This document shows, one piece after another, positions 1 to 8,569 of a stretch of DNA of 8,569 bases. Every line of letters begins with the position of its first letter. Position 1 is the first letter of the stretch. The translations under genes were made by a program, and so were the position numbers. Source of the stretch: Deltaproteobacteria bacterium (GTDB taxonomy: Bacteria; Desulfobacterota; Syntrophia; Syntrophales; Smithellaceae); assembly GCA_009668925.1 (NCBI GenBank), contig SBEK01000170.1, positions 1-8,569 on the forward strand. The letters run 5' to 3'. Under the pieces are notes generated by a model. It searched no databases, was not told the origin of the DNA, and was given only the letters and a program-made list of their open reading frames with translations.

Positions 1-256
1 GTGCCGCGGTTTCCCATCCGTCCAAGTGCAATGCGCCGCCTTCCGATGAAAAGACGCACCGGTCATTTAAAACGGCAGTGGAAAACGGATTCTCCGCTTG
101 TCATTGCGGTCCATTCCGTCCGATAGGATTTTTTGAAATTTCGATTGGTACGGAACGATTATCGGCAAGTCTCCTTGCTGGTTTCAAAGAAAACAAACAT
201 CATTAAGGAAGTAACCGGAAAATGTGATGCACTGAGAATAAACGCATTGACCGGAA
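1..256. other. No recognisable gene
   Basis: The first 256 bases hold no gene I can support. One + strand frame is open from base 1 to a TAG at 124-126 (41 codons, basic and unrecognised), so the tail of a gene starting outside the window is possible. A short - strand frame from about position 72 also runs off the left edge. Neither shows a motif or a clear ribosome binding site. Confidence 0.4.
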
Positions 257-868
257 TCAATCATTTGACTGTGGTTTTTCGAGAATACGTTTGCGGATTC
301 TGCTGAGTGCAACGGGGGTGATGCCCAGATAGGACGCAATGTGATATTGCGACACTCGTTTTTCAACATCCGGATATCTCTTTTGGAAATTCAGGTAGCG
401 GTTTGTGACATCCAGAGACAGTAAATCTCTTTCCCGTTTTTCCTTCTCGATGAAAAGATCTTCCAAATATTTTCGGGCGACGTCATTCCAGCATCTGTGT
501 TCGCTCAAATGTTTCTTTAATTCATTTAAAGGCATGCAGATGAGGAAGCTCGGTTCAAGAGCCTGGATACCGTACCAGGATGGTTCATTCTCCTGAACGG
601 ATCGATAAGCGGATAAAAAACGGTTTTCCCCTCTGAAGACAAGAATCCTTTCATTGCCCTCTTCGGTATTGTAATAAACACGAAAAATCCCGGATATGAC
701 AAAAGCCATTTTATCCGGGATATCTCCGATTCTCAAAAAATGCTGTCCCTTTTGAAGCTTGCAGGGTTCCACCGAAATATGTTTTGAATATTCCCATTCC
801 GATTCCGGTATGGGACCATATTTCATCAGTGCCTGACGTATAAGATACTGATAGGGGGCGGCATCCAT
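257..868 (-). CDS. Crp/Fnr-family transcriptional regulator
   Basis: This 203-residue protein has the two-part layout of Crp/Fnr regulators. A cyclic-nucleotide-binding-like beta-roll spans about residues 36-120, a dimerisation helix about 125-160, and a C-terminal helix-turn-helix about 171-197. The HTH reads SQYHIASYLGITPVALSRIRK, the form common in the Bacteroidetes-like branch of the family. I see no N-terminal cysteine cluster of the Fnr iron-sulfur type; the few Cys are scattered (36, 111, 126). The Arg/Ser pair that grips cAMP in Crp is not evident, so the ligand is unknown. The ATG at 868 is supported by AGGGA 9 bases upstream (878-882) and by a promoter about 57 bases upstream. The gene stands alone, with its neighbour TraB ending 316 bases upstream on the same strand. 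Base composition looks more AT-rich than the hgcAB region, judged by eye. Family assignment is firm; targets are unknown. Confidence 0.88.
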   Translation of the reverse strand: MDAAPYQYLIRQALMKYGPIPESEWEYSKHISVEPCKLQKGQHFLRIGDIPDKMAFVISGIFRVYYNTEEGNERILVFRGENRFLSAYRSVQENEPSWYGIQALEPSFLICMPLNELKKHLSEHRCWNDVARKYLEDLFIEKEKRERDLLSLDVTNRYLNFQKRYPDVEKRVSQYHIASYLGITPVALSRIRKRILEKPQSND

Positions 869-924
869 AGCATCTTTTCCCTATTCGGCGGTTGCATTCT
901 ATATTTTGGTAACACCCGGAGGCC

Positions 925-953
925 ATTATATAAATTTTGAACCGGTTTTTGAA
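925..953 (-). promoter_or_regulatory. Sigma70-like promoter of the Crp/Fnr-type gene
   Basis: Read on the - strand, a perfect TATAAT (925-930) lies 17 bases from TTCAAA (948-953, 4 of 6 matches to TTGACA). This predicts a start near 918 and a leader of about 50 bases to the ATG at 868. The spacer holds the palindrome AACCGGTT (940-947), flanked by two direct TTCAAAA copies, which could be an operator, possibly for the gene's own product. The remainder of the 869-1184 gap holds no gene I can support, only short hairpins at 1034-1049 and 1088-1103 without U-runs. Confidence 0.5.
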
Positions 954-1184
954 GCCATTTTCTCGGTCATGTTCCGCCGCAGCAGAGGATCGAATGAATC
1001 GACCCAAAAAATGTTCATGAGAAATTGATGATCAGAATGCAAACATTCTTCAGGCGCGCTTTTCGTTTGATCAGGCTCCCGGGCATCATGATGATTGCAT
1101 CATTGGTGGAAGCGCGGGCCGGTTCAGGCATTATCCATAGCCGATAACCATCACCAGACCGCTCACGGCCGATCGACGCGGCCG

Positions 1185-2063
1185 CTATCTGCTGAGCTGC
1201 GTCACCTTGAAGCCGCGCCTGCGCAAAAGATCGACAACGCTGTCGCGGCCGGCCAGATGGGCCACCCCGACAATGACCATGGTGTTGATGTTTCCGCCAA
1301 GCGCACTTTCGATCTTCGCAAGCCACTTCTGATTGCGGTTCACAATCAACAGCACATACAATTGCGGATAATTTTTCAGTTCACGCAGCATGACGGCTTC
1401 AATGCCGGCTTCATCGCCTCTGCGCCAGGCGGCGAGGATATCCTCTATTTTACCGTCCAGCCGCGTGAGGTCATCGATGGTTTCACTGAGCTGCTCGTTG
1501 CCCACGCTGCCGTCCATGGCGGCAAGAAACCCGACTTGTTCATCGGCTGTTTCCAGTCCGCCGATGGATTTCCCATCGCGAAGCGCTTTCTGATAATAAA
1601 AATGATCAACGCCGTATCGGGCTTCGACGCCCAGACGGGAGAGCTCCTGCATGGCCAGCATCATCGACAGCATCCAGGGGCGAAACATCTGATATTGATC
1701 GAACGGATAGCCGCGCTCCCGGCAGAATTTTTCCGCCCGGGCGTAAACGGCGGGCGCCACGTGCTGTTTGAGCGTCGTCCCGTCCGGATACATGGCCAGC
1801 GCCATAAGCTTCTGCAGGTATTCGGCCGCTTCCAGATCTCCGGGCGGCGCTTCGAAGATGAGTTGGCGGGAATCCGCATAAGCGGTTTCAAACGGGGCGG
1901 GCAGCGGATGATCGGATGCCCGGAGCACATGGCAGGAGCCGGCCAGATAAACCGTGGCCCCGGCCCCTTTTACGGCCCAGACCGAGCTCTGGGCCCCGGC
2001 CCCGGCGGCCGACAGAAGAACGCTCATCACCCCCAGAGCGATTTTTCCCCAGAAGCATTTCAT
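1185..2063 (-). CDS. TraB/GumN-family exported protein
   Basis: This 292-residue protein matches the TraB/GumN family (Pfam TraB). The N-terminus is a signal peptide: Lys residues, the hydrophobic run IALGVMSVLLSAAGAGA, then a likely cut near residues 24-25 (AGAQ). The mature protein begins with the family's first GxxH motif, GSCH (42-45), followed by a conserved Glu in FEAPP (71). Next come GVDH (151-154), ETADEQ (171-176), RNQKW (243-247) and the second GxxH, GVAH (266-269). Members are suspected metal-dependent proteases (Tiki-like), and the GxxH and Glu residues are the presumed metal ligands; substrates are generally unknown in bacteria. Its ATG follows GGGAG by 7 bases (2071-2075) and lies 35 bases after the C_GCAxxG_C_C gene, so the two are probably cotranscribed. 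Family call is firm; role is unknown. Confidence 0.87.
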   Translation of the reverse strand: MKCFWGKIALGVMSVLLSAAGAGAQSSVWAVKGAGATVYLAGSCHVLRASDHPLPAPFETAYADSRQLIFEAPPGDLEAAEYLQKLMALAMYPDGTTLKQHVAPAVYARAEKFCRERGYPFDQYQMFRPWMLSMMLAMQELSRLGVEARYGVDHFYYQKALRDGKSIGGLETADEQVGFLAAMDGSVGNEQLSETIDDLTRLDGKIEDILAAWRRGDEAGIEAVMLRELKNYPQLYVLLIVNRNQKWLAKIESALGGNINTMVIVGVAHLAGRDSVVDLLRRRGFKVTQLSR

Positions 2064-2098
2064 TGTCTTTCTCCCGGCCTCATCATCGGTTTCCGGCC

Positions 2099-2551
2099 CT
2101 ATTTCGAAGCAATGGCATCTTCAATCAGGGAAGCGGCGTCCCGCACACATGGCCGGCAGATCAGATTGAAATATTCGTTTTCTTTAAAGTAGGCGTGTCC
2201 GTCCGGAGTGGCCAGATCGCAGCCGTCTAATAATTCCCGGCAAATGCAGGAACCATGTCGGTCGGAAAACCGCTTCATAAATTCGCGGACTTTCAGATAG
2301 GTGGCATCCGTTTCGATGCGTTTGTCATTTTCACCCCGGCCGAATTTCAATCCCAGAACCATAATGCCACCGGATACGGCGCCGCACACCTCCCCCTGGC
2401 GTCCCAGGCCGCCGCCGAAACCGCAGGCCAGCTTTAACGCCCGGTCGGCGGTAAGCCCCAGTTCGTCACAGAAGGAAAACAAGACCGATTGGGAGCAGTT
2501 ATAACCTTCCATAAATTTTGCTTCAGCTATTTGGGCATGCGTCGTCATCAT
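2099..2551 (-). CDS. C_GCAxxG_C_C family redox-active protein
   Basis: This 150-residue cytoplasmic protein fits the C_GCAxxG_C_C family, small cysteine-rich proteins common in anaerobes and thought to be redox-active or cofactor-binding. Visible motifs are YNCSQSV (C19), C28, ACGFGGGLG (C43), GEVCGAVSGG (C56), a CxC pair at 102 and 104, C111, and CRPC (132 and 135). The nine cysteines sit in the family's expected order, so the protein appears intact. There are two adjacent ATG codons. The first (2549-2551) is backed by AGGA 9 bases upstream. It leads a - strand operon with the TraB-like gene and is divergent from the MarR-hgcAB unit, sharing a 182-base intergenic region. A redox link with HgcB is only an inference from proximity. 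Confidence 0.85.
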   Translation of the reverse strand: MMTTHAQIAEAKFMEGYNCSQSVLFSFCDELGLTADRALKLACGFGGGLGRQGEVCGAVSGGIMVLGLKFGRGENDKRIETDATYLKVREFMKRFSDRHGSCICRELLDGCDLATPDGHAYFKENEYFNLICRPCVRDAASLIEDAIASK

Positions 2552-2607
2552 TCATCCCTTTCCTCTCACGGGTTTTGCACGTAAAAAGCGCTTTTTTGAC
2601 CGGCCAA

Positions 2608-2635
2608 AGAATAACATTTTTATTTTAATATTCAA
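2608..2635 (-). promoter_or_regulatory. Putative promoter of the C_GCAxxG_C_C / TraB operon
   Basis: On the - strand, TTGAAT (2630-2635) and TATTCT (2608-2613) are 16 bases apart in an AT-rich stretch, each matching consensus at 4 of 6 positions. The predicted start is near 2601, giving a leader of about 50 bases before the ATG at 2551. The leader contains the perfect palindrome AAAAAGCGCTTTTT (2583-2596), a possible operator or small hairpin. Confidence 0.4.
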
Positions 2636-2696
2636 ATGATAATTGCCCCGCCGGTGATCCTCCTCACTTAAAGCCGGACGTCATTAAATTCAGCCC

Positions 2697-2724
2697 TTGA
2701 CAAAAACCGATATAGTTGTATATT
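2697..2724 (+). promoter_or_regulatory. Sigma70-like promoter of the marR-hgcAB unit
   Basis: A perfect TTGACA (2697-2702) is followed after 16 bases by TATATT (2719-2724). Initiation would fall around 2731, only a few bases before the MarR ATG at 2734. The -10 element lies wholly inside the inverted repeat at 2715-2729. It is the best promoter candidate seen upstream of hgcA. Confidence 0.65.
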
Positions 2725-2729
2725 ACAAC
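2715..2729. promoter_or_regulatory. Probable MarR operator, GTTGTA-N3-TACAAC
   Basis: The sequence GTTGTATATTACAAC is an inverted repeat with perfect 6-base arms and a 3-base centre. Its size and symmetry suit a MarR dimer, and it covers the -10 element of the promoter that drives the MarR gene itself. A bound dimer would block polymerase, so negative autoregulation of marR and of downstream hgcAB is the natural reading. The binding protein is inferred from position. Confidence 0.6.
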
Positions 2730-2733
2730 CAAT

Positions 2734-3237
2734 ATGAAAAAGAACGCTTTCGATCACGATGCCTGGATGGGCCTGTTTATCGGGTTGTCACAGGCAGCAC
2801 GCTGCTGCCGGCAGGATACGGCTTTTTGTGAAGGGGTCACCTTCCATCAGTTCATCATTCTCGACGCCGTAATGAAGAACAACGAATTGCATATTGCGGA
2901 TTTGCACCGGATTCTCTCGGTGGAAAAAAGCACAACGACCCGGCTGGTCAATCCTCTGATTCAAAAAGGACTCCTCACGCGCGAGCGGTCGGGCTGTGAT
3001 TCTCGGGCGTTTGTCCTGACGCTGACGAAAGAGGGCCGTGCGGTTCATCACAAGGTGCACGTATGCCTGGAAGGGTTTTTCAATAAAATAGCGATCCATC
3101 TGCCGGCACAGAAGAGCGGCGATATTATGGAAGCGGTACAAATTTTTTTGGACGCCGTGAAAAATGCGGCGGGAATCTACACGTGTTGTAACCAGGTATC
3201 GAGGATAAACGATGGAAGAGAACAAGCAGGGACTTAA
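2734..3237 (+). CDS. Cysteine-rich MarR-family regulator, first gene of the hgcAB unit
   Basis: This 167-residue winged-helix protein has a MarR layout: N-terminal dimerisation helices (about 8-50), HTH with recognition helix VEKSTTTRLVNPLIQKGLL (63-81), and wing RSGCDSRAFVLTLT carrying the family's DxR (89-91). I chose ATG 2734. The in-frame TTG at 2716 lies inside the promoter and operator, upstream of the predicted transcription start. No Shine-Dalgarno precedes 2734, so the message may be nearly leaderless. Seven cysteines stand out: C24-C25, C32, C88 in the wing, C111, and C151-C152 near the C-terminus. Vicinal and clustered Cys suggest sensing of a thiol-reactive ligand, metal or metalloid, which is an inference. 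The 3' end overlaps hgcA by 26 bases, implying shared transcription and perhaps translational coupling. Family is sure; ligand and targets are not. Confidence 0.88.
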   Translation: MKKNAFDHDAWMGLFIGLSQAARCCRQDTAFCEGVTFHQFIILDAVMKNNELHIADLHRILSVEKSTTTRLVNPLIQKGLLTRERSGCDSRAFVLTLTKEGRAVHHKVHVCLEGFFNKIAIHLPAQKSGDIMEAVQIFLDAVKNAAGIYTCCNQVSRINDGREQAGT

Positions 3238-4381
3238 GCCGGCCTATTCATTTGAGTTCCCGGTCATCCGGGAGCAGGCCCTCTGCGGCGGGGATACGGC
3301 GTCTGATGAAACACAACCCTTGGCGAGCCCCGACCAGCCTTTTGTTTCGGGAACGATTTCCACCCCGGCGGGGCCGGTGCCGCAAGTCACGTCCGTCTTG
3401 ACGCGTCAGGATCGATGGGGAACCATTAAGGCCCGTTTGGGCGTCTGGCGAATGAACTACGCCATCGACCCGGGCCTCTATGCGCTGAATAGCCCGGATG
3501 CGGAATCCCCCGTTCTGGTCACGGCCAATTACAAGCTGAGCTTTGACCGGCTGAGAAGCTCCCTGCCCGGACGCGACGCCTGGATCCTGGTTTTGGACAC
3601 CAAAGGCATCAATGTGTGGTGCGCGGCGGGCAAAGGCACCTTCGGCACACTGGAGCTCTTAAAGAGAATTGCGGCAAGCGGCCTGGCCCGCGTGGTCAAT
3701 CATAAAAAGCTCATTCTCCCGCAGCTGGGCGCCCCCGGCGTCGCCGCCCACCAGATCAGGAAGTTCTCCGGTTTCAAGGTTTATTTCGGTCCGGTGCGCG
3801 CCGAGGATTTGCCGGCCTACCTGGATGCCGGACTCGCGGCCGATGAAGCGATGCGGCGGGTCACCTTCGGGCTTGCCGACCGGGCCGTGCTCATCCCGAT
3901 TGAACTTACGGCTACGGTCAAACCCTTTGTGATTCTGTCTTTGGCTTTTTTGCTCGCGGCTGGCCTGCTGGGCCGGGCCGGATTTCTGACCAACGTGCTT
4001 CATGACGGCCTTCTTGCCGTCCTGGCCTTCTTCCTGGCCATTGTTGCCGGAGCCGTATTGAGTCCGCTAATGCTCCCCTGGCTGCCCGGACGAGCCTTCT
4101 CGGTCAAGGGATTTTCTATCGGATTGCTGATTGCCCTGGCGCTGATTATCATGAGCGGCGCCGACCTGCGCTCCTGGGCGGGCCGGGTGGAGGCTCTGGC
4201 CTGGCTCATGATCATACCGGCCGTCTCCGCCTATCTGGCCATGAATTTTACAGGCGCCTCGACCTACACATCGCTGTCGGGCGTAAAGAAGGAAATGCGC
4301 CTGGCCCTGCCTCTGGAAATAGCGGCCGGGGTTCTCGGTCTGGTGGTCTGGATGGCATCGCTTGTCATCAGTTGGACGTAA
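3212..4381 (+). CDS. hgcA: HgcA, corrinoid protein of mercury methylation
   Basis: HgcA is the membrane corrinoid protein thought to transfer a methyl group to Hg(II), forming methylmercury. In this 389-residue protein the corrinoid-binding domain spans about 65-215. It contains the diagnostic cap-helix motif NVWCAAGKGTFGT, in which Cys137 is the expected lower-axial ligand to cobalt. Five membrane segments follow at about 235-256, 264-288, 300-317, 328-346 and 367-388. The highly conserved HgcA block MNFTGASTYTSLSGVKKEMR (343-362) lies between the last two. The ATG at 3212 has GAGG 7 bases upstream (3201-3204), inside the end of the MarR gene. The N-terminus is about 44 residues longer than I recall for Desulfovibrio ND132, where the Cys is residue 93. 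It is followed after 105 bases by hgcB. The methyl donor is presumably the acetyl-CoA/folate pathway, which is not encoded here. All diagnostic residues are intact. Confidence 0.96.
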   Translation: MEENKQGLKPAYSFEFPVIREQALCGGDTASDETQPLASPDQPFVSGTISTPAGPVPQVTSVLTRQDRWGTIKARLGVWRMNYAIDPGLYALNSPDAESPVLVTANYKLSFDRLRSSLPGRDAWILVLDTKGINVWCAAGKGTFGTLELLKRIAASGLARVVNHKKLILPQLGAPGVAAHQIRKFSGFKVYFGPVRAEDLPAYLDAGLAADEAMRRVTFGLADRAVLIPIELTATVKPFVILSLAFLLAAGLLGRAGFLTNVLHDGLLAVLAFFLAIVAGAVLSPLMLPWLPGRAFSVKGFSIGLLIALALIIMSGADLRSWAGRVEALAWLMIIPAVSAYLAMNFTGASTYTSLSGVKKEMRLALPLEIAAGVLGLVVWMASLVISWT

Positions 4382-4393
4382 ATTACAACGTGA

Positions 4394-4445
4394 TAGAACA
4401 AGCGGACTTGCCACCCGTGAGAGGGGGCGGCAACCTCTTGTTCTA
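4394..4445 (+). promoter_or_regulatory. Long imperfect hairpin between hgcA and hgcB
   Basis: The perfect 9-base arms TAGAACAAG (4394-4402) and CTTGTTCTA (4437-4445) enclose further pairing: GG 4404-4405 with CC 4434-4435, TTGCC 4408-4412 with GGCAA 4429-4433, and CCC 4414-4416 with GGG 4425-4427. The apical loop GTGAGAGG (4417-4424) closes it. That gives about 19 pairs in 52 bases. It is followed by ACAAAAAGTTAAG, not a U-run, so it is a poor intrinsic terminator. It may be a processing or stability element that sets the hgcA:hgcB ratio. It starts 12 bases after the hgcA stop. Confidence 0.6.
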
Positions 4446-4475
4446 CAAAAAGTTAAGTTATTACAAATATTTTTT

Positions 4476-4479
4476 GGAG
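4476..4479 (+). promoter_or_regulatory. Ribosome binding site that decides the hgcB start
   Basis: GGAG is followed by two in-frame ATG codons, at 4481 and 4487. The first is a single base away, too close to be used. The second is 7 bases away, a normal spacing, so translation should begin at 4487 (MDKTVYL). Confidence 0.75.
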
Positions 4480-4486
4480 AATGGAA

Positions 4487-4813
4487 ATGGACAAAACGGT
4501 TTATCTGAAAAATGTTGCAACCCTGTCACTGGACACACAAAAATGCACCGGCTGCGGTATGTGCCTTGAGGTCTGCCCCCACGGTGTGTTCAGGATGAAC
4601 CAGAAAAGCGTTCACATCCTTGACCGCGATGCCTGCATGGAATGCGGCGCGTGCAGCCGGAATTGCCCTGCGCAGGCCATCGCCGTGGAAGCCGGTGTCG
4701 GCTGCGCCGCCGCCGTCATCAACAGCCTGCTGGGAAGAAACGGCGGGGAATGCTGCTGTGGACCGCAAACCAACGCCAAGGGAACCTTCGGGAGCGGCGG
4801 CTGCTGCACCTGA
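4487..4813 (+). CDS. hgcB: HgcB, 2[4Fe-4S] ferredoxin of mercury methylation
   Basis: HgcB is the ferredoxin partner of HgcA. It is thought to reduce the cobalt of the corrinoid and possibly to deliver Hg(II). This 108-residue protein has two complete cluster motifs: CTGCGMCLEVCP (C20, C23, C26, C30) and the HgcB-diagnostic CMECGACSRNCP (C50, C53, C56, C60). The conserved VGC Cys at position 73 follows; it corresponds to the essential downstream Cys known from ND132 HgcB. The tail holds a triple Cys (89-91) and a terminal CCT (106-108), which matches the vicinal C-terminal cysteines expected to bind Hg(II). The upstream ATG at 4481 is disfavoured by the Shine-Dalgarno spacing. No convincing promoter was seen between hgcA and hgcB, so it probably depends on the marR-hgcA transcript. 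The pairing with hgcA makes the call firm. Confidence 0.95.
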   Translation: MDKTVYLKNVATLSLDTQKCTGCGMCLEVCPHGVFRMNQKSVHILDRDACMECGACSRNCPAQAIAVEAGVGCAAAVINSLLGRNGGECCCGPQTNAKGTFGSGGCCT

Positions 4814-5134
4814 AGGAGGGATACCGGAAGGTCTGATGATTCCCCCCGCTAAGAACAGCCCCGGCATCCCTACCGGCCTGATCCTGATCCCCATTGGTTT
4901 GCATATAGCCGATATAACTACACTTATTCATTACGCTCTTGACTTTGGCGGCGCATTCCTGTAAGAGGGTTCCGGTCCGCCCCAATGACCTCAATGAATT
5001 ATGGATTTCGGAATTGCTCAACGTTTATACGAATTTACCTTCCGTAACAGCCGTTGGGGATCTATGTGCCTTTCATCTCTTCATCACGACAAAAATCATT
5101 CCCGCCAACACGGGGGTAAAGGAGGAAATATATC
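4814..5134. other. Intergenic region between hgcB and the GAPDH gene
   Basis: These 321 bases hold no gene I can support. They contain the inverted repeat after hgcB and, near the right end, the strong ribosome binding site of the GAPDH gene (AAAGGAGG, 5118-5125, 9 bases before the ATG). A TTGACT at 4939-4944 has no good -10 partner. The GAPDH promoter presumably lies here but I cannot place it. A 42-codon frame at 4836-4964 is discussed among the rejected items. Confidence 0.5.
4817..4871 (+). promoter_or_regulatory. Inverted repeat just after hgcB
   Basis: Arms 4817-4827 (AGGGATACCGG) and 4861-4871 (CCGGCATCCCT) pair over 11 positions with one A-C mismatch, enclosing a 33-base loop. No U-run follows, so this is more likely a 3' stability structure or chance than a classical terminator. 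Confidence 0.3.
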
Positions 5135-6406
5135 ATGAGTAACAGCAGCACAAAGGAAAGCAAGGGGCCGGTACTCGGCATTAACAGTCTGGGACGAATC
5201 GGCAAGCTGACGTTATGGCATCATGTCGGCAGAAAGTATTTCAAGGAAATCATCGTCAATCAGGGCCGCGATGTGGGAACGGGGATGGAAACCATCGCCC
5301 GGCTGATTGAAACGGACGCCACTTACGGTTTGCTCCACCGGTTTCTTTACGGCTATAAAGCAAAACCTTGCGTACAGATTACGGACGAAAAGAACGGCAA
5401 ACTGCTCATCGACGGCGTGCCGGTGACCATTCTGCGCGAGGAGCGCAACCCGCTCAATATTCCCTGGCGTCAGTACGGTGCGGACATCGTTGTGGACTGC
5501 AGCGGAAACTTTAAAGATCCGACCGTTCCCGTCGACGACAAGAAAGGGTCGATCCGGGGCCATTTGAACGGGGGCGCCAAGGTGGTAATCCATTCCGCGC
5601 CGTTCAAGATCAAAAACAAGGCCCTGTCCGTGCCGGACGACACCACCACGCTGATTTACGGCATCAACCACACGGCTTTCGACCGCAAGAAGCATCTGCT
5701 CGTTTCCGCCGCGTCCTGCACAACAACGGGGCTTGCCCACATGGTGAAGCCGCTTCTGGATAATGAGGAAACCAGCACGATTTTGACCGCGTCCATGTCC
5801 ACGATCCACGCCGTCACCAATACGCAGAGCGTTCTGGATAAACTGCCCAAGGCGGGAGAAAAGGACATCCGCAAGACGCGCAGCATTCTGAACAATATTA
5901 TTCTGACGTCGACGGGCGCGGCGAAGGCCCTGGCCGAGGTGATTCCGGAAGTCAAAAACATCGGGTTCATGGGCGATTCCATCCGGGTGCCAACCAATAC
6001 CCTTTCGCTCATCATCCTGAACGCGACGTTTCAGGCGCGGCCCAACGGCAAAGGCGACGCCGCAAATATCGACACGAAGAAGCTCAATGATATTTACGAG
6101 AAGATCGCCCAGAACAATCCCCTGGTCCGCTTTACGATGCAGCAGAATGTCTCGACCGACCTGATCGGCGAAGACGCGGCGGTGATTATTGAAGGTCAGT
6201 TCAATCACACGAGAACCGCTTTCATTCCGGTTGATCTGTCGCACATTCCGAATCTGCCGGCGGGCGTTCTCCAGACCCTCGGTGGAAAAATGCTGCAGGT
6301 CCCGGTGGTCCATGCCAAGATCTTCGGCTGGTATGACAACGAGTTCGGCAGCTACACGAACCGCATGGGTGATTTGACCGTTTATATCCACAAGAATATT
6401 CAATAA
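5135..6406 (+). CDS. gap: Glyceraldehyde-3-phosphate dehydrogenase, long variant
   Basis: This enzyme oxidises glyceraldehyde-3-phosphate to 1,3-bisphosphoglycerate with NAD(P)+ and phosphate, or runs in reverse in gluconeogenesis. The N-terminal dinucleotide motif is NSLGRIGKL (17-25). The catalytic loop SAASCTTTGLAH carries Cys195, and the partner His225 lies in MSTIHAVTNTQ. Downstream are ILTSTGAAKAL (256-266), the substrate-binding segment IRVPTNTLSL (283-292) and WYDNEFGSYTNRMGDL (399-414). At 423 residues it exceeds the usual 330-340. The extra length lies in an N-terminal extension and insertions around 70-110, 130-145 and 300-325. Some near-invariant positions differ: SCTTN is SCTTT and NEWGYSN is NEFGSYTN. 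The active site is intact, so function is likely retained. It has its own strong ribosome binding site and terminator. Cofactor preference cannot be told. Confidence 0.93.
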   Translation: MSNSSTKESKGPVLGINSLGRIGKLTLWHHVGRKYFKEIIVNQGRDVGTGMETIARLIETDATYGLLHRFLYGYKAKPCVQITDEKNGKLLIDGVPVTILREERNPLNIPWRQYGADIVVDCSGNFKDPTVPVDDKKGSIRGHLNGGAKVVIHSAPFKIKNKALSVPDDTTTLIYGINHTAFDRKKHLLVSAASCTTTGLAHMVKPLLDNEETSTILTASMSTIHAVTNTQSVLDKLPKAGEKDIRKTRSILNNIILTSTGAAKALAEVIPEVKNIGFMGDSIRVPTNTLSLIILNATFQARPNGKGDAANIDTKKLNDIYEKIAQNNPLVRFTMQQNVSTDLIGEDAAVIIEGQFNHTRTAFIPVDLSHIPNLPAGVLQTLGGKMLQVPVVHAKIFGWYDNEFGSYTNRMGDLTVYIHKNIQ

Positions 6407-6427
6407 GCGATACTGAGCGAGTGAATG

Positions 6428-6462
6428 AGACCCCCGCTTCTCTTTCGGGAGGCGGGGGTTTT
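6428..6462 (+). terminator. Intrinsic terminator of the GAPDH gene
   Basis: CCCCCGCTTCTC (6431-6442) and GGGAGGCGGGGG (6447-6458) form a 12-pair stem with two G-T wobbles and the tetraloop TTTC. An outer A-T pair and TTTT (6459-6462) follow. It starts about 22 bases after the GAPDH stop and is the clearest terminator in the window. Confidence 0.9.
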
Positions 6463-6495
6463 CACAAGGGCCGGCGGGGGCTCTATCCCTTGGTC

Positions 6496-6524
6496 TTGGC
6501 AATTTAGGAAAAGTGGTGTAGAAC
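6496..6524 (+). promoter_or_regulatory. Putative promoter of the PAS-GGDEF gene
   Basis: TTGGCA (6496-6501, 5 of 6 matches) and TAGAAC (6519-6524, 4 of 6) are separated by 17 bases, just after the GAPDH terminator. The predicted start is near 6531. A stem with 7-base arms (6523-6529 with 6549-6555) overlaps the start region and sits just before the Shine-Dalgarno-like AGGAAAGG (6563-6570). Confidence 0.45.
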
Positions 6525-6580
6525 GCCGGCATATAAAAAACTTTTGCACCGGCGTGAACATCAGGAAAGGCGTTTTTGCT

Positions 6581-7564
6581 GTGGCTGTCAAATCGGAACA
6601 CATAAACATCGGCCCGCCGGAGCTCGCGAACCAGTTCAACAGGATGGTCGATGAAAACAAGCGGCTGCAGATCCAATTTTCCGCCGCCGCCAAACAGGTT
6701 CATGAACTCAACGAGTTTATCCAGATCATGCTGAACCTCTCTCCCTTCGGCATCTGCATCATCCAGAAATACAGATTGATTTATAGCAATAAGGCCTTTA
6801 CGGAAACTTTCGGATTTACGTCCAAGCAGCTGCGGGACATGTCGGCGCTGGATATCGTTTACGCGGAAGATCGGGAGCATGTCCGGAAGAGCGTCGATGC
6901 CATGCTCAACGGCGAGACCCAATCGTTCTTCATGTTCCGCGTAATGACCCCTCAGGATAAGATCAAATGGATCATGGGTTCCGTCGCCCTCATTCACATG
7001 AATGAAAAACGGGCCGTCCTGGGCAATTTTGTTGATCTGACCGAAGGGCGGGTCATACAGCTCGCGTATAACGATCCGCTGACGGGGCTGGCCAACCGGA
7101 TGCTGATGATGGACCGTCTGGAACAGGCCATCGTCACGGCCAAAAGAAGAAGTGGCCAGCTGGCTCTGCTGTTCCTCGATCTGGACGAATTCAAGGAAGT
7201 CAATGACGCCCACGGCCATCTGGTCGGAGACGCTCTGCTCGTGGAGATCGCCAACGGACTTAAGGGCGTTATCCGGCGTGAAAATGACACCATCGCCCGG
7301 ATCGGCGGCGACGAGTTTCTCATTCTGCTCACGGATATCGCGCAGAAGGAGCACATCGAAGCTATCGTGGGCCATCTTTTTGAAAGATTTCAGGAACCCT
7401 TATTGTTGGGCAATCCGCCGCTTCGGATCAAGGTCAACTTCAGCATCGGCATCGCGCTGTTTCCGCAAAACGGTGAAGACTCGGACACGCTGATCCGCAG
7501 CGCCGATATGGCGATGTACAGAATCAAAAAAGCCAAGGGAAAAAATCATTTCTGTTTTTTCTGA
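6581..7564 (+). CDS. PAS-GGDEF diguanylate cyclase
   Basis: This protein should make cyclic di-GMP from two GTP. From the GTG at 6581 it has 327 residues: a coiled-coil-prone stretch (about 15-45), a PAS sensor domain (about 46-155, starting LNLSPFGICIIQKYRLIYSNKAF) and a GGDEF domain (about 161-324). The GGDEF domain begins DPLTGLANR, has LDLDEFKEVND for Mg/GTP binding and an intact GGDEF active site (242-246). An RxxD inhibitory I-site (REND, 233-236) sits exactly five residues before it, so product inhibition is expected. No membrane segment is seen, so it is cytosolic. I chose GTG 6581 because AGGAAAGG lies 10 bases upstream and the frame's first ATG (6425) lies within the GAPDH terminator; GTG 6554 is an alternative. 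The PAS ligand is unknown. Confidence 0.88.
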   Translation: MAVKSEHINIGPPELANQFNRMVDENKRLQIQFSAAAKQVHELNEFIQIMLNLSPFGICIIQKYRLIYSNKAFTETFGFTSKQLRDMSALDIVYAEDREHVRKSVDAMLNGETQSFFMFRVMTPQDKIKWIMGSVALIHMNEKRAVLGNFVDLTEGRVIQLAYNDPLTGLANRMLMMDRLEQAIVTAKRRSGQLALLFLDLDEFKEVNDAHGHLVGDALLVEIANGLKGVIRRENDTIARIGGDEFLILLTDIAQKEHIEAIVGHLFERFQEPLLLGNPPLRIKVNFSIGIALFPQNGEDSDTLIRSADMAMYRIKKAKGKNHFCFF

Positions 7565-7765
7565 GGAAATCTTTTTACCATTCACGCCCATGCCAGATCA
7601 TCCTGAATTCAGAACGCCCTTCCTTGAGAAGGTTCAAAGACGCGGTTTGCCGCTTTGCCCTGATAGATGTTTCGGGGCGGACCGGTTGCGGGGGGAAACG
7701 CTTGCCGCCTTCATTTGCAAAGGATCGGCGGCAATCCGGGGCGAGACCAAGCCTGCCCCGCCGTT
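7565..7765. other. Convergent intergenic region with two hairpins
   Basis: No gene is visible in these 201 bases. TTGCCGCC (7702-7709) pairs with GGCGGCAA (7727-7734) across a 17-base loop. CGGGGC (7737-7742) pairs with GCCCCG (7755-7760) and is followed by CCGTTTTAT on the + strand, a weak terminator candidate for the cyclase gene. Confidence 0.35.
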
Positions 7766-8569
7766 TTATATGGTCTCCAGTTTCTTATCGAGCACGCGCT
7801 TGAATGCTTCGACGACTTGAGGATCAAACTGCTTGCCGGTATTGATCATAATTTGTTCGCGAGCCTGCCAGGGCGGCATGCCCTTGCGGTACGGACGATC
7901 CGTTGTCATGGCATCGAAGGCGTCGGCGACGGCCAGGATCCGCGCTCCCAAAGGTATCTTTCTTTCCTTTAGGGCATCATTATCCAAGTTTTCGTTGTTG
8001 GAGAAGTACTCATGGTGGGCCATGACGATGGGGACAACCTCCTTGAGAACCGACCCCACAGAGGAAAGAATCATGGCTCCCTTCTCGGCATGTTTGTCGA
8101 TCTCATCCTTCTCTTCAGTTGTGAGGTCAGCTGCCTTGCGTAGAATTTCTCCGCTCACCTCCACCTTTCCAATGTCATGGAGCAATCCCGCCACCCGGAT
8201 GTTCTCGACGTCGGTACGATACAGCTCCATGGCAATAGCAATGTCCATGGCCAGTTCTGAGACGCGGACAGAATGCCCCTTTGTGTCGCGGTCCGTCGAC
8301 TCGAGATATTTAGACAGTATCTCCAGGATTCCGACGTAGGCATTTTGCAGGTCATGCAGCTGGCGTCTGTTCATCTCATAGAGACTGCCGACCGTGATGC
8401 TCGCCAGGATGAGAAAACCTGTCCAGGAGCAAAGCCTGCAGATATCCTGTAACAACGTATTGGGGGTGAAAAATCTGGAGGGATAAACGGTGGCAAAGGC
8501 AATGATCAGCAGAACGGACAGGATCGCGATGAGAAGCCCCGAACGGCGCCCCAGCAAATAGGCCCCCAT
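7766..8569 (-). CDS. Membrane-anchored HD-GYP-like protein, partial at the window edge
   Basis: The 267 visible residues carry two membrane segments (about 12-29 and 48-66), a linker helix (about 67-95) and an HD phosphohydrolase domain of the HD-GYP type (about 78-262). Metal-site residues are present: H99 in KGHS, the HD pair in LLHDIGK (131-132), H160, HHE (185-187) and D216 in ILAVADAFDAMTTDRPYRKG. The loop after HHE, which normally reads like DGxGYP, is here YFSNNENLDNDALKERKIP and lacks GYP. HD-GYP proteins hydrolyse c-di-GMP to GMP or pGpG, but loss of GYP makes substrate and GGDEF-partner binding uncertain. The frame is open to the last base and ends on an ATG there. The start LLGRRSGLLIAILSVLL resembles the middle of a multi-membrane sensor region, so the true N-terminus probably lies beyond the window. 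It converges on the diguanylate cyclase gene. Confidence 0.85.
   Translation of the reverse strand: MGAYLLGRRSGLLIAILSVLLIIAFATVYPSRFFTPNTLLQDICRLCSWTGFLILASITVGSLYEMNRRQLHDLQNAYVGILEILSKYLESTDRDTKGHSVRVSELAMDIAIAMELYRTDVENIRVAGLLHDIGKVEVSGEILRKAADLTTEEKDEIDKHAEKGAMILSSVGSVLKEVVPIVMAHHEYFSNNENLDNDALKERKIPLGARILAVADAFDAMTTDRPYRKGMPPWQAREQIMINTGKQFDPQVVEAFKRVLDKKLETI

Follow-up and report, generated by a model that had tools for sequence, protein, structure and literature searches.

A predicted MarR-type repressor and its conserved candidate operator head the hgcAB operon of a Smithellaceae-like bacterium

We analyzed an 8.6-kb metagenome contig (SBEK01000170.1; the whole stretch, positions 1-8569, is called the window) that carries the mercury methylation genes hgcA and hgcB directly behind a gene for a MarR-family regulator. 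The host is a Smithellaceae-like bacterium with a three-gene operon, marR-hgcA-hgcB, preceded by a sigma-70-like promoter and by a palindrome that is predicted, from its conservation and symmetry, to be the MarR operator. A preliminary description of 3212..4813 had recognized the hgcAB pair but missed the overlapping upstream marR gene with its promoter and operator. The main features are the following.

2697..2702, + strand: -35 hexamer TTGACA of the marR-hgcAB promoter, with a 16-nt spacer to the -10 hexamer and 11/12 matches to sigma-70
2712..2732, no strand assigned: predicted 21-bp operator palindrome ATAGTTGTATATTACAACCAA, with core TTGTATATTACAA at 2716-2728
2719..2724, + strand: -10 hexamer TATATT, inside the operator
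2734..3237, + strand: marR, first operon gene, encoding a MarR-family one-component regulator of 167 amino acids with cysteines 24, 25, 32, 88, 111, 151, and 152
3212..4381, + strand: hgcA, encoding 389 amino acids with a corrinoid-binding domain and a five-helix membrane domain
3611..3634, + strand: cap-helix motif NVWCAAGK of HgcA (residues 134-141, Cys at 137)
4487..4813, + strand: hgcB, encoding a two-cluster ferredoxin of 108 amino acids with Cys73 and a Cys-rich tail; start moved from 4481

The hgcAB assignment is far beyond chance, and by itself the pair in the window is an ordinary one. HgcA scores 460.8 bits against the NCBIfam equivalog NF040863 (cut-off, 275), with residues 56-384 aligned to positions 1-323 of the 325-position model; its scores against the HgcAB-like fusion model (202.6 bits; cut-off, 285) and the CFeSP gamma subunit model (72.0 bits; cut-off, 306) both stay below threshold. 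HgcB likewise exceeds its curated equivalog cut-off (NF040864, 124.2 bits against 99). The cap-helix motif is invariant across 28 aligned HgcA sequences, the window's included, NFTGASTYTSLSG begins at residue 345, and hydropathy alone places five hydrophobic clusters in the C-terminal half, centered at 234-254, 265-284, 303-314, 335-338, and 370-380. All of this agrees with the preliminary description, which had named these motifs and five membrane segments and called for a profile search and a phylogenetic placement. For the latter we built a tree by a quick method from 81 HgcA sequences without a CFeSP outgroup: the window plus 80 HgcA loci, the best 80 of 582 relatives in a one-genome-per-species collection (L155-L158 were left out of the locus analysis). 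The window HgcA falls among Smithellaceae and Syntrophaceae HgcA, within a set of 8 (Shimodaira-Hasegawa-like approximate likelihood-ratio test [SH-aLRT], 99) of metagenome-assembled genomes (MAGs) titled Smithella sp., Smithellaceae, Syntrophaceae, or unplaced deltaproteobacteria. This set is nested in a set of 21 (SH-aLRT, 96), all of which have the MarR gene. Model scores and tree together rule out a CdhD-like corrinoid protein in place of HgcA. The best non-self database matches to the window HgcA share 83, 82, and 78% identity, and named Smithellaceae come next at 71-72%; by sequence, the only PDB relatives are distant CFeSP large subunits (4 distinct chains, E up to 0.001).

HgcB shows both cluster motifs, the downstream cysteine, and the Cys-rich tail, as had been described, and its identity stands, though its start probably does not. 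A GGAG at 4476-4479 lies only 1 nt before the start first assigned at 4481 and 7 nt before the ATG at 4487; since this spacing, the alignment of the relatives' HgcB proteins with 4487, and the match of the cysteine numbers to HgcB of strain ND132 all favor the later codon, 4487 is the more likely start. The cysteines then fall at 20, 23, 26, 30, 50, 53, 56, 60, and 73, followed by 89-91 and 106-107. Upstream, the hgcA reading frame overlaps that of marR by 26 nt, and hgcA has its own ribosome-binding site, GAGG, at 3201-3204.

Compared with the enzyme pair of ND132 (Pseudodesulfovibrio mercurii/Desulfovibrio desulfuricans), the window shares the cap-helix Cys and five membrane segments of HgcA, and the two CxxCxxCxxxCP motifs, Cys73 at the same number, and tail cysteines of HgcB (PMC7305189). 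Cap-helix Cys93 of ND132 corresponds to Cys137 here, with about 44 extra residues ahead of it. According to the same source, ND132 HgcB cannot do without Cys73, and to be fully active it must keep one or both of its two C-terminal cysteines (PMC7305189). Judged by its residues, the window HgcAB appears to depart in nothing from the ND132 scheme: the window's HgcA would hold cobalamin via Cys137 and transfer a methyl group to Hg(II), and HgcB would be the reducing ferredoxin, handling mercury with Cys73 and the cysteines of its tail. The complete pair with its diagnostic residues is borne out, and the earlier label "predicted mercury methylator" is fair only as a prediction from genotype. The upstream regulator also differs, ArsR in ND132 and MarR in the window.

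The window MarR matches Pfam families PF12802 (48.8 bits; cut-off, 27) and PF01047 (33.1 bits; cut-off, 24.6). The ArsR-type helix-turn-helix family PF01022, present in 7 scanned examples of hgcA-linked ArsR regulators, is absent among its hits. In three comparisons, nonsynonymous divergence (pN) of the gene is 0.17-0.25 against synonymous divergence (pS) of 0.66-0.73. Several cysteines of the protein are conserved: among 24 aligned MarR proteins (set A2), C32 and C111 occur in all 24, C151 in 23, and C25 in 21, and in a second set (A3, the window plus 44 MarR proteins picked from 120 listed) all four occur in 45 of 45.

The promoter is the sole sigma-70-like site on either strand of 2500-5150; shuffled sequences yield 1.7 such sites on average, so the site alone means little and its weight comes from conservation. 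Among 47 distinct marR contexts (one match, L009, being false at a contig edge, and one context, L147, a pseudogene), TTG-N7-CAA stands at the promoter in 45. Both contexts lacking a scripted match also have a site, L154 with its copy 99 nt upstream and L146 with one that had been sought in the wrong place. An exact TTGACA lies 15-18 nt before the -10 hexamer in 40 of the 45 (16 nt in 30). The wider operator consensus is ATRGTTGTATNATACAACYAT, six copies are perfect 10 + 1 + 10 palindromes, and the final AT of the operator is the start of the marR ATG in 34 of 45 contexts. The -10 hexamer ends 6 or 9 nt before this ATG in 23 of 25 MarR rows with the palindrome; because it lies so close, the marR-hgcA-hgcB mRNA would be leaderless or nearly so.

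Across genomes, this MarR gene keeps to hgcAB. It lies upstream of hgcA in 26 of the 80 HgcA loci (24 close relatives and 2 distant ones, L077 and L078) and in the window. In the other 54 the upstream gene is of many kinds, including ArsR (11) and AbrB/MazE (4) regulators, which were labeled by eye and lie in some cases up to ~0.6 kb from hgcA; Pfam confirmed the 7 ArsR and 3 AbrB/MazE that were scanned. We then counted both genes in 155 genomes of the order to which G002, the Smithella MAG of locus L002, belongs, taking E < 1e-50 as the MarR threshold and copying the co-occurrence tables by hand. HgcA is present in 78 genomes (75 over its cut-off) and MarR in 54, and 53 of these 54 MarR genes immediately precede hgcA in the same orientation, the remaining one (G062) being cut by a contig end. 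Another 25 genomes have hgcA without MarR and 76 have neither (Fisher p 8e-21, uncorrected for relatedness). We also scored no more than 9 candidates per genome in a set of 395 genomes of the phylum, and at E < 1e-40 9 of these have MarR. Five are genomes of that order included in the count above; in the four from outside it (G020, G274, G352, and G511) hgcA adjoins MarR. In the genomes searched, then, the orthologous MarR group stays with hgcAB, distant cousins elsewhere being allowed for.

The four AbrB/MazE-type regulators upstream of hgcA (L027, L034, L035, and L059) have CC pairs in three of the four, those scanned. Their loci, from MAGs of Syntrophaceae UBA2188 and deltaproteobacteria, group together as a single branch of the HgcA tree (97). 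PMC10349881 stresses this type for archaea; here it occurs in bacterial MAGs too.

Searching the 155 genomes for the operator pattern GTTGTATNATACAAC with at most one mismatch, a setting that would miss degenerate targets, placed it before 45 of the 54 MarR genes. Seven of the other nine carry a two-mismatch copy at the same position (G003, G015, G076, G078, G081, G130, and G132); in G053 a contig break lies between operator and marR, and the contig of G009 begins inside marR. Near hgcA in the 54 loci without MarR, the motif appears once. Elsewhere in the 155 genomes there are 33 further operator-like sites; 3 are marR promoters (the split copy of G053 and remnants in G072 and G091), and the 30 left compare with 29 for the reversed pattern. 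A wider MarR regulon is therefore not supported by this control, and there is no sign of a second MarR target beyond chance at one mismatch or fewer.

MarR-positive genomes of the order hold 12 of the extra sites; we inspected 7 of these and one more in G020. That of G053 is the split marR promoter already named. Long reading frames enclose the sites of G006, G015, and G020, and that of G007 is among overlapping ones. In G057, a perfect operator copy with a TTGACA-N16-TATGAT promoter directly precedes an IS1595-type transposase gene; a perfect copy in G014 lies near a DDE-transposase-like gene (a weaker match), and a near-copy in G048 lies by IS-like repeats recognized by eye. These three sites (L144, 2735-3722; L103, 1500; and L145, 3316) are all in MarR-positive genomes and are either chance promoter likenesses or insertion elements answering to the same MarR.

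Natural losses bear on the direction of control. One of them is marked by a gene that lies downstream of the operon in the window.

5135..6406, + strand: GAPDH-like gene, a downstream neighbor outside the operon system, at the site where G072 lost hgcAB

In G072 (L146), where the genome search finds no HgcA, the operator and a shortened marR run straight into the same GAPDH gene, and window positions 2867-3036 and 4911-6408 align to adjoining stretches. G142 (L147), also without HgcA, has a marR with an internal stop codon. In G091 (L153), the one genome searched for remnants among the 25 with hgcA but without MarR, the promoter, the operator, and the first part of marR are kept, the remainder of marR is gone, and hgcA follows. 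In these cases no intact marR remains where hgcAB is gone, whereas hgcA can persist with its promoter after marR has been cut. Such persistence, as in G091, is easier to square with a repressor than with an activator that hgcA could not do without.

From these observations we propose, with good confidence though on genomic grounds, that MarR is a dedicated, thiol-type repressor of hgcAB within the marR-hgcA-hgcB operon. A MarR dimer would bind the 21-bp palindrome, which holds the -10 hexamer and reaches the marR start codon (in most relatives, into it). So bound, it would block RNA polymerase and hold down both marR and hgcAB. Release would follow when a thiol-reactive signal acts at C32, C111, and C151/C152; candidate signals are oxidants and soft metals or metalloids, As(III) and Hg(II) among them. 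On this model marR is probably an on/off switch for the making of methylmercury.

Several findings weigh against this interpretation. MarR is absent from 25 of the 78 hgcA-positive genomes of the order, which means that hgcAB in itself does not require it. More distant MarR proteins do occur away from hgcA (2e-24 in G233 and E about 1e-16 in G005, G018, G152, and G155), and the MarR profile was built from hgcA-linked genes, so the group is defined by that link, although the lack of any close member away from hgcA does carry information. Of the 26 MarR loci, 4 (L006, L008, L012, and L029) yielded no HgcB beside hgcA in a scripted search. On the HgcA tree the MarR label requires up to 7 changes; with many branches weak and 3 of the changes forced by well-supported ones, the tree does not show a single gain, and cassette transfer or repeated loss of MarR may lie behind the pattern. 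The window operator is less symmetric than most, with 7 of 10 arm pairs symmetric against 10 of 10 in six relatives, and it does not reach into the ATG, which begins 1 nt after the 21-mer; in the window's nearest relatives the marR ATG likewise lies a few bases beyond the operator. Finally, two perfect extra operator copies, in G014 and G057, stand beside transposase-like genes.

MarR might be a neighbor of an ordinary hgcAB pair by chance or by shared gene-order ancestry, without regulating it. In favor of this, Smithellaceae-type relatives have other neighbors in common as well: as far as contigs reach, a C_GCAxxG_C_C gene is found in 5 of the 24 close MarR loci searched (L001-L005), and a downstream GAPDH gene is found in 5 (L002, L004, L005, L006, and L029). 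The MarR link, however, extends to loci titled Desulfobacterales, Desulfobacteraceae, or unplaced deltaproteobacteria and to the four phylum genomes from outside the order (L039, L042, L044, and L162-L165), the operator is at the promoter in those distant loci as well, and marR is broken in two genomes without hgcAB, which makes a mere neighbor highly improbable. Some MarR proteins act as activators, and the imperfect -10 hexamer of some copies (e.g., CATAAT) would suit activation of hgcAB; the palindrome nonetheless spans the -10 hexamer and extends as far as the start codon, where a bound protein would be well placed to block polymerase, and hgcA of G091 keeps an intact promoter despite its shortened marR, so that we regard an activator as unlikely, if a little less so than a bystander.

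The nature of the signal is a closer call. A repressor that works as a MexR-like redox switch, or that senses an organic ligand instead of a metal or metalloid, is a serious competitor, although we lean away from it. Many MarR proteins bind small aromatics. The profile column of C32 aligns with a cysteine of MexR, which we take to be Cys30, and MexR is a redox regulator of the same family and fold, though its targets differ and its sequence is distant. Oxidized MexR forms an intermonomer disulfide between C30 and C62 (PMC6018408). Two points speak against this alternative, though neither excludes oxidation: C111 sits about midway along the C-terminal half and other conserved cysteines sit at the C terminus, and ten unrelated hgcA-linked regulators are also Cys-rich. 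These ten, 7 ArsR and 3 AbrB/MazE proteins of 90-133 residues, contain 5-10 cysteines each, compared with a Cys content of 0.9% for five other proteins of the window (the comparison covers these, the window MarR, and the A2 set). The conserved MarR cysteines together with the Cys-richness of these unrelated regulators point to a shared thiol-seeking signal, and suggest that the MarR signal is of that kind. The zinc regulators AdcR and ZitR share family and fold with the window MarR, with different targets and distant sequence. The metal ligands of AdcR come from the helix 1-2 loop and mid helix 5 (PMC6224198), regions in which C32 and C111 would lie; a homologous AdcR-type metal site in MarR, matched column by column, is not established. 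HgcAB here might also serve mainly another corrinoid methyl transfer, with mercury as a side substrate and MarR reporting the true one. HgcAB has no settled native role, its carriers are reported to be no less susceptible to Hg (PMC7305189), and the ArsR-like regulator of ND132 hgcAB is reported to respond to arsenic (PMC10349881); yet the residues tied to methylation in ND132 (the cap-helix Cys, cluster Cys, Cys73, and tail Cys pair) are all kept, and we find this account doubtful.

A broader reading would take in all three regulator types: hgcAB may be run by at least three unrelated, dedicated, Cys-rich one-component regulators (MarR, ArsR, and AbrB/MazE) that converged on the same thiol-seeking signal, so that cells would deploy hgcAB under control, in response to some soft metal or metalloid, and the Syntrophales MarR would have a single target. 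We offer this only tentatively, as a conjecture that we would not yet favor over its denial.

Some features lie outside this argument. HgcA proteins of this group have an N-terminal extension of 40-50 residues (window, 3212-3360), usually with CC or CxC. By a crude choice of start codons, at least 2 cysteines occur there in 21 of 27 MarR-linked rows (window included) against 13 of 54 others; the window extension retains one (C25). Such an extension could conceivably be a mercury-docking tail. The gap between hgcA and hgcB contains a further element.

4394..4445, + strand: stem-loop TAGAACAAG...CTTGTTCTA (inverted repeat I1), z = -4.2 against 200 shuffles

This gap is 105 nt in the window against 9-25 nt in 16 of 19 measurable relatives, which rules out the stem-loop as a general control of hgcB. 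In L005 the gap measures 91 nt and contains a similar AGAACAAG/CCTGTTCT hairpin, and the element is perhaps a dispersed repeat. An Rfam scan of the window gave zero matches, so no riboswitch or other known RNA was found there. Downstream of the operon the window also encodes a PAS-GGDEF diguanylate cyclase (6425-7564) and an HD-domain (HD_5) protein (7766-8569). The GGDEF neighbor recurs in L005, L006, and L029, and L051 is a sixth locus with the GAPDH gene, there on the opposite side.

Parts of this picture were already on record. Smithella is among the hgcA carriers already reported, and no other deltaproteobacterium is named as expressing hgcA so predominantly in bog samples (PMC7438021); a single sentence of PMC10349881 names a MarR-family gene upstream of hgcA in two cultured strains. 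That sentence, which gives no operator, cysteines, or distribution, describes the same family in the same position, possibly a homolog of the window group. McDaniel et al. 2020 report a putative transcriptional regulator of unstated family upstream of hgcAB in 112 genomes (PMC7438021); it is conserved right before hgcAB, as MarR is, and some of the 112 could be of MarR or ArsR type. The arsenic-responsive regulator of ND132 hgcAB (Gionfriddo et al. 2023, via PMC10349881) is likewise a one-component protein upstream of hgcA, of a different family (PF12802/PF01047 in the window, not PF01022). Our literature search, from which subscription papers were largely outside and which is no proof of absence, turned up no account of a conserved MarR-operator unit of hgcAB. 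With hgcAB in Smithella and a MarR gene upstream of hgcA already known, the new part would be this predicted, conserved unit.

In the accessible literature, the sole experimentally confirmed switch of hgcAB is one ArsR case (PMC10349881), even though Smithella-type bacteria express hgcA in bogs (PMC7438021). A regulator that apparently has a single target and a defined operator provides a handle on this control, and the MarR ligand should reveal the cell's own HgcAB substrate or signal. The marR gene and its operator together can serve as a sequence marker for the type of hgcAB regulation in metagenomes. If the reading of convergent regulators is true, in vitro work could directly test both what HgcAB does natively and what in the environment triggers syntrophs to produce methylmercury.

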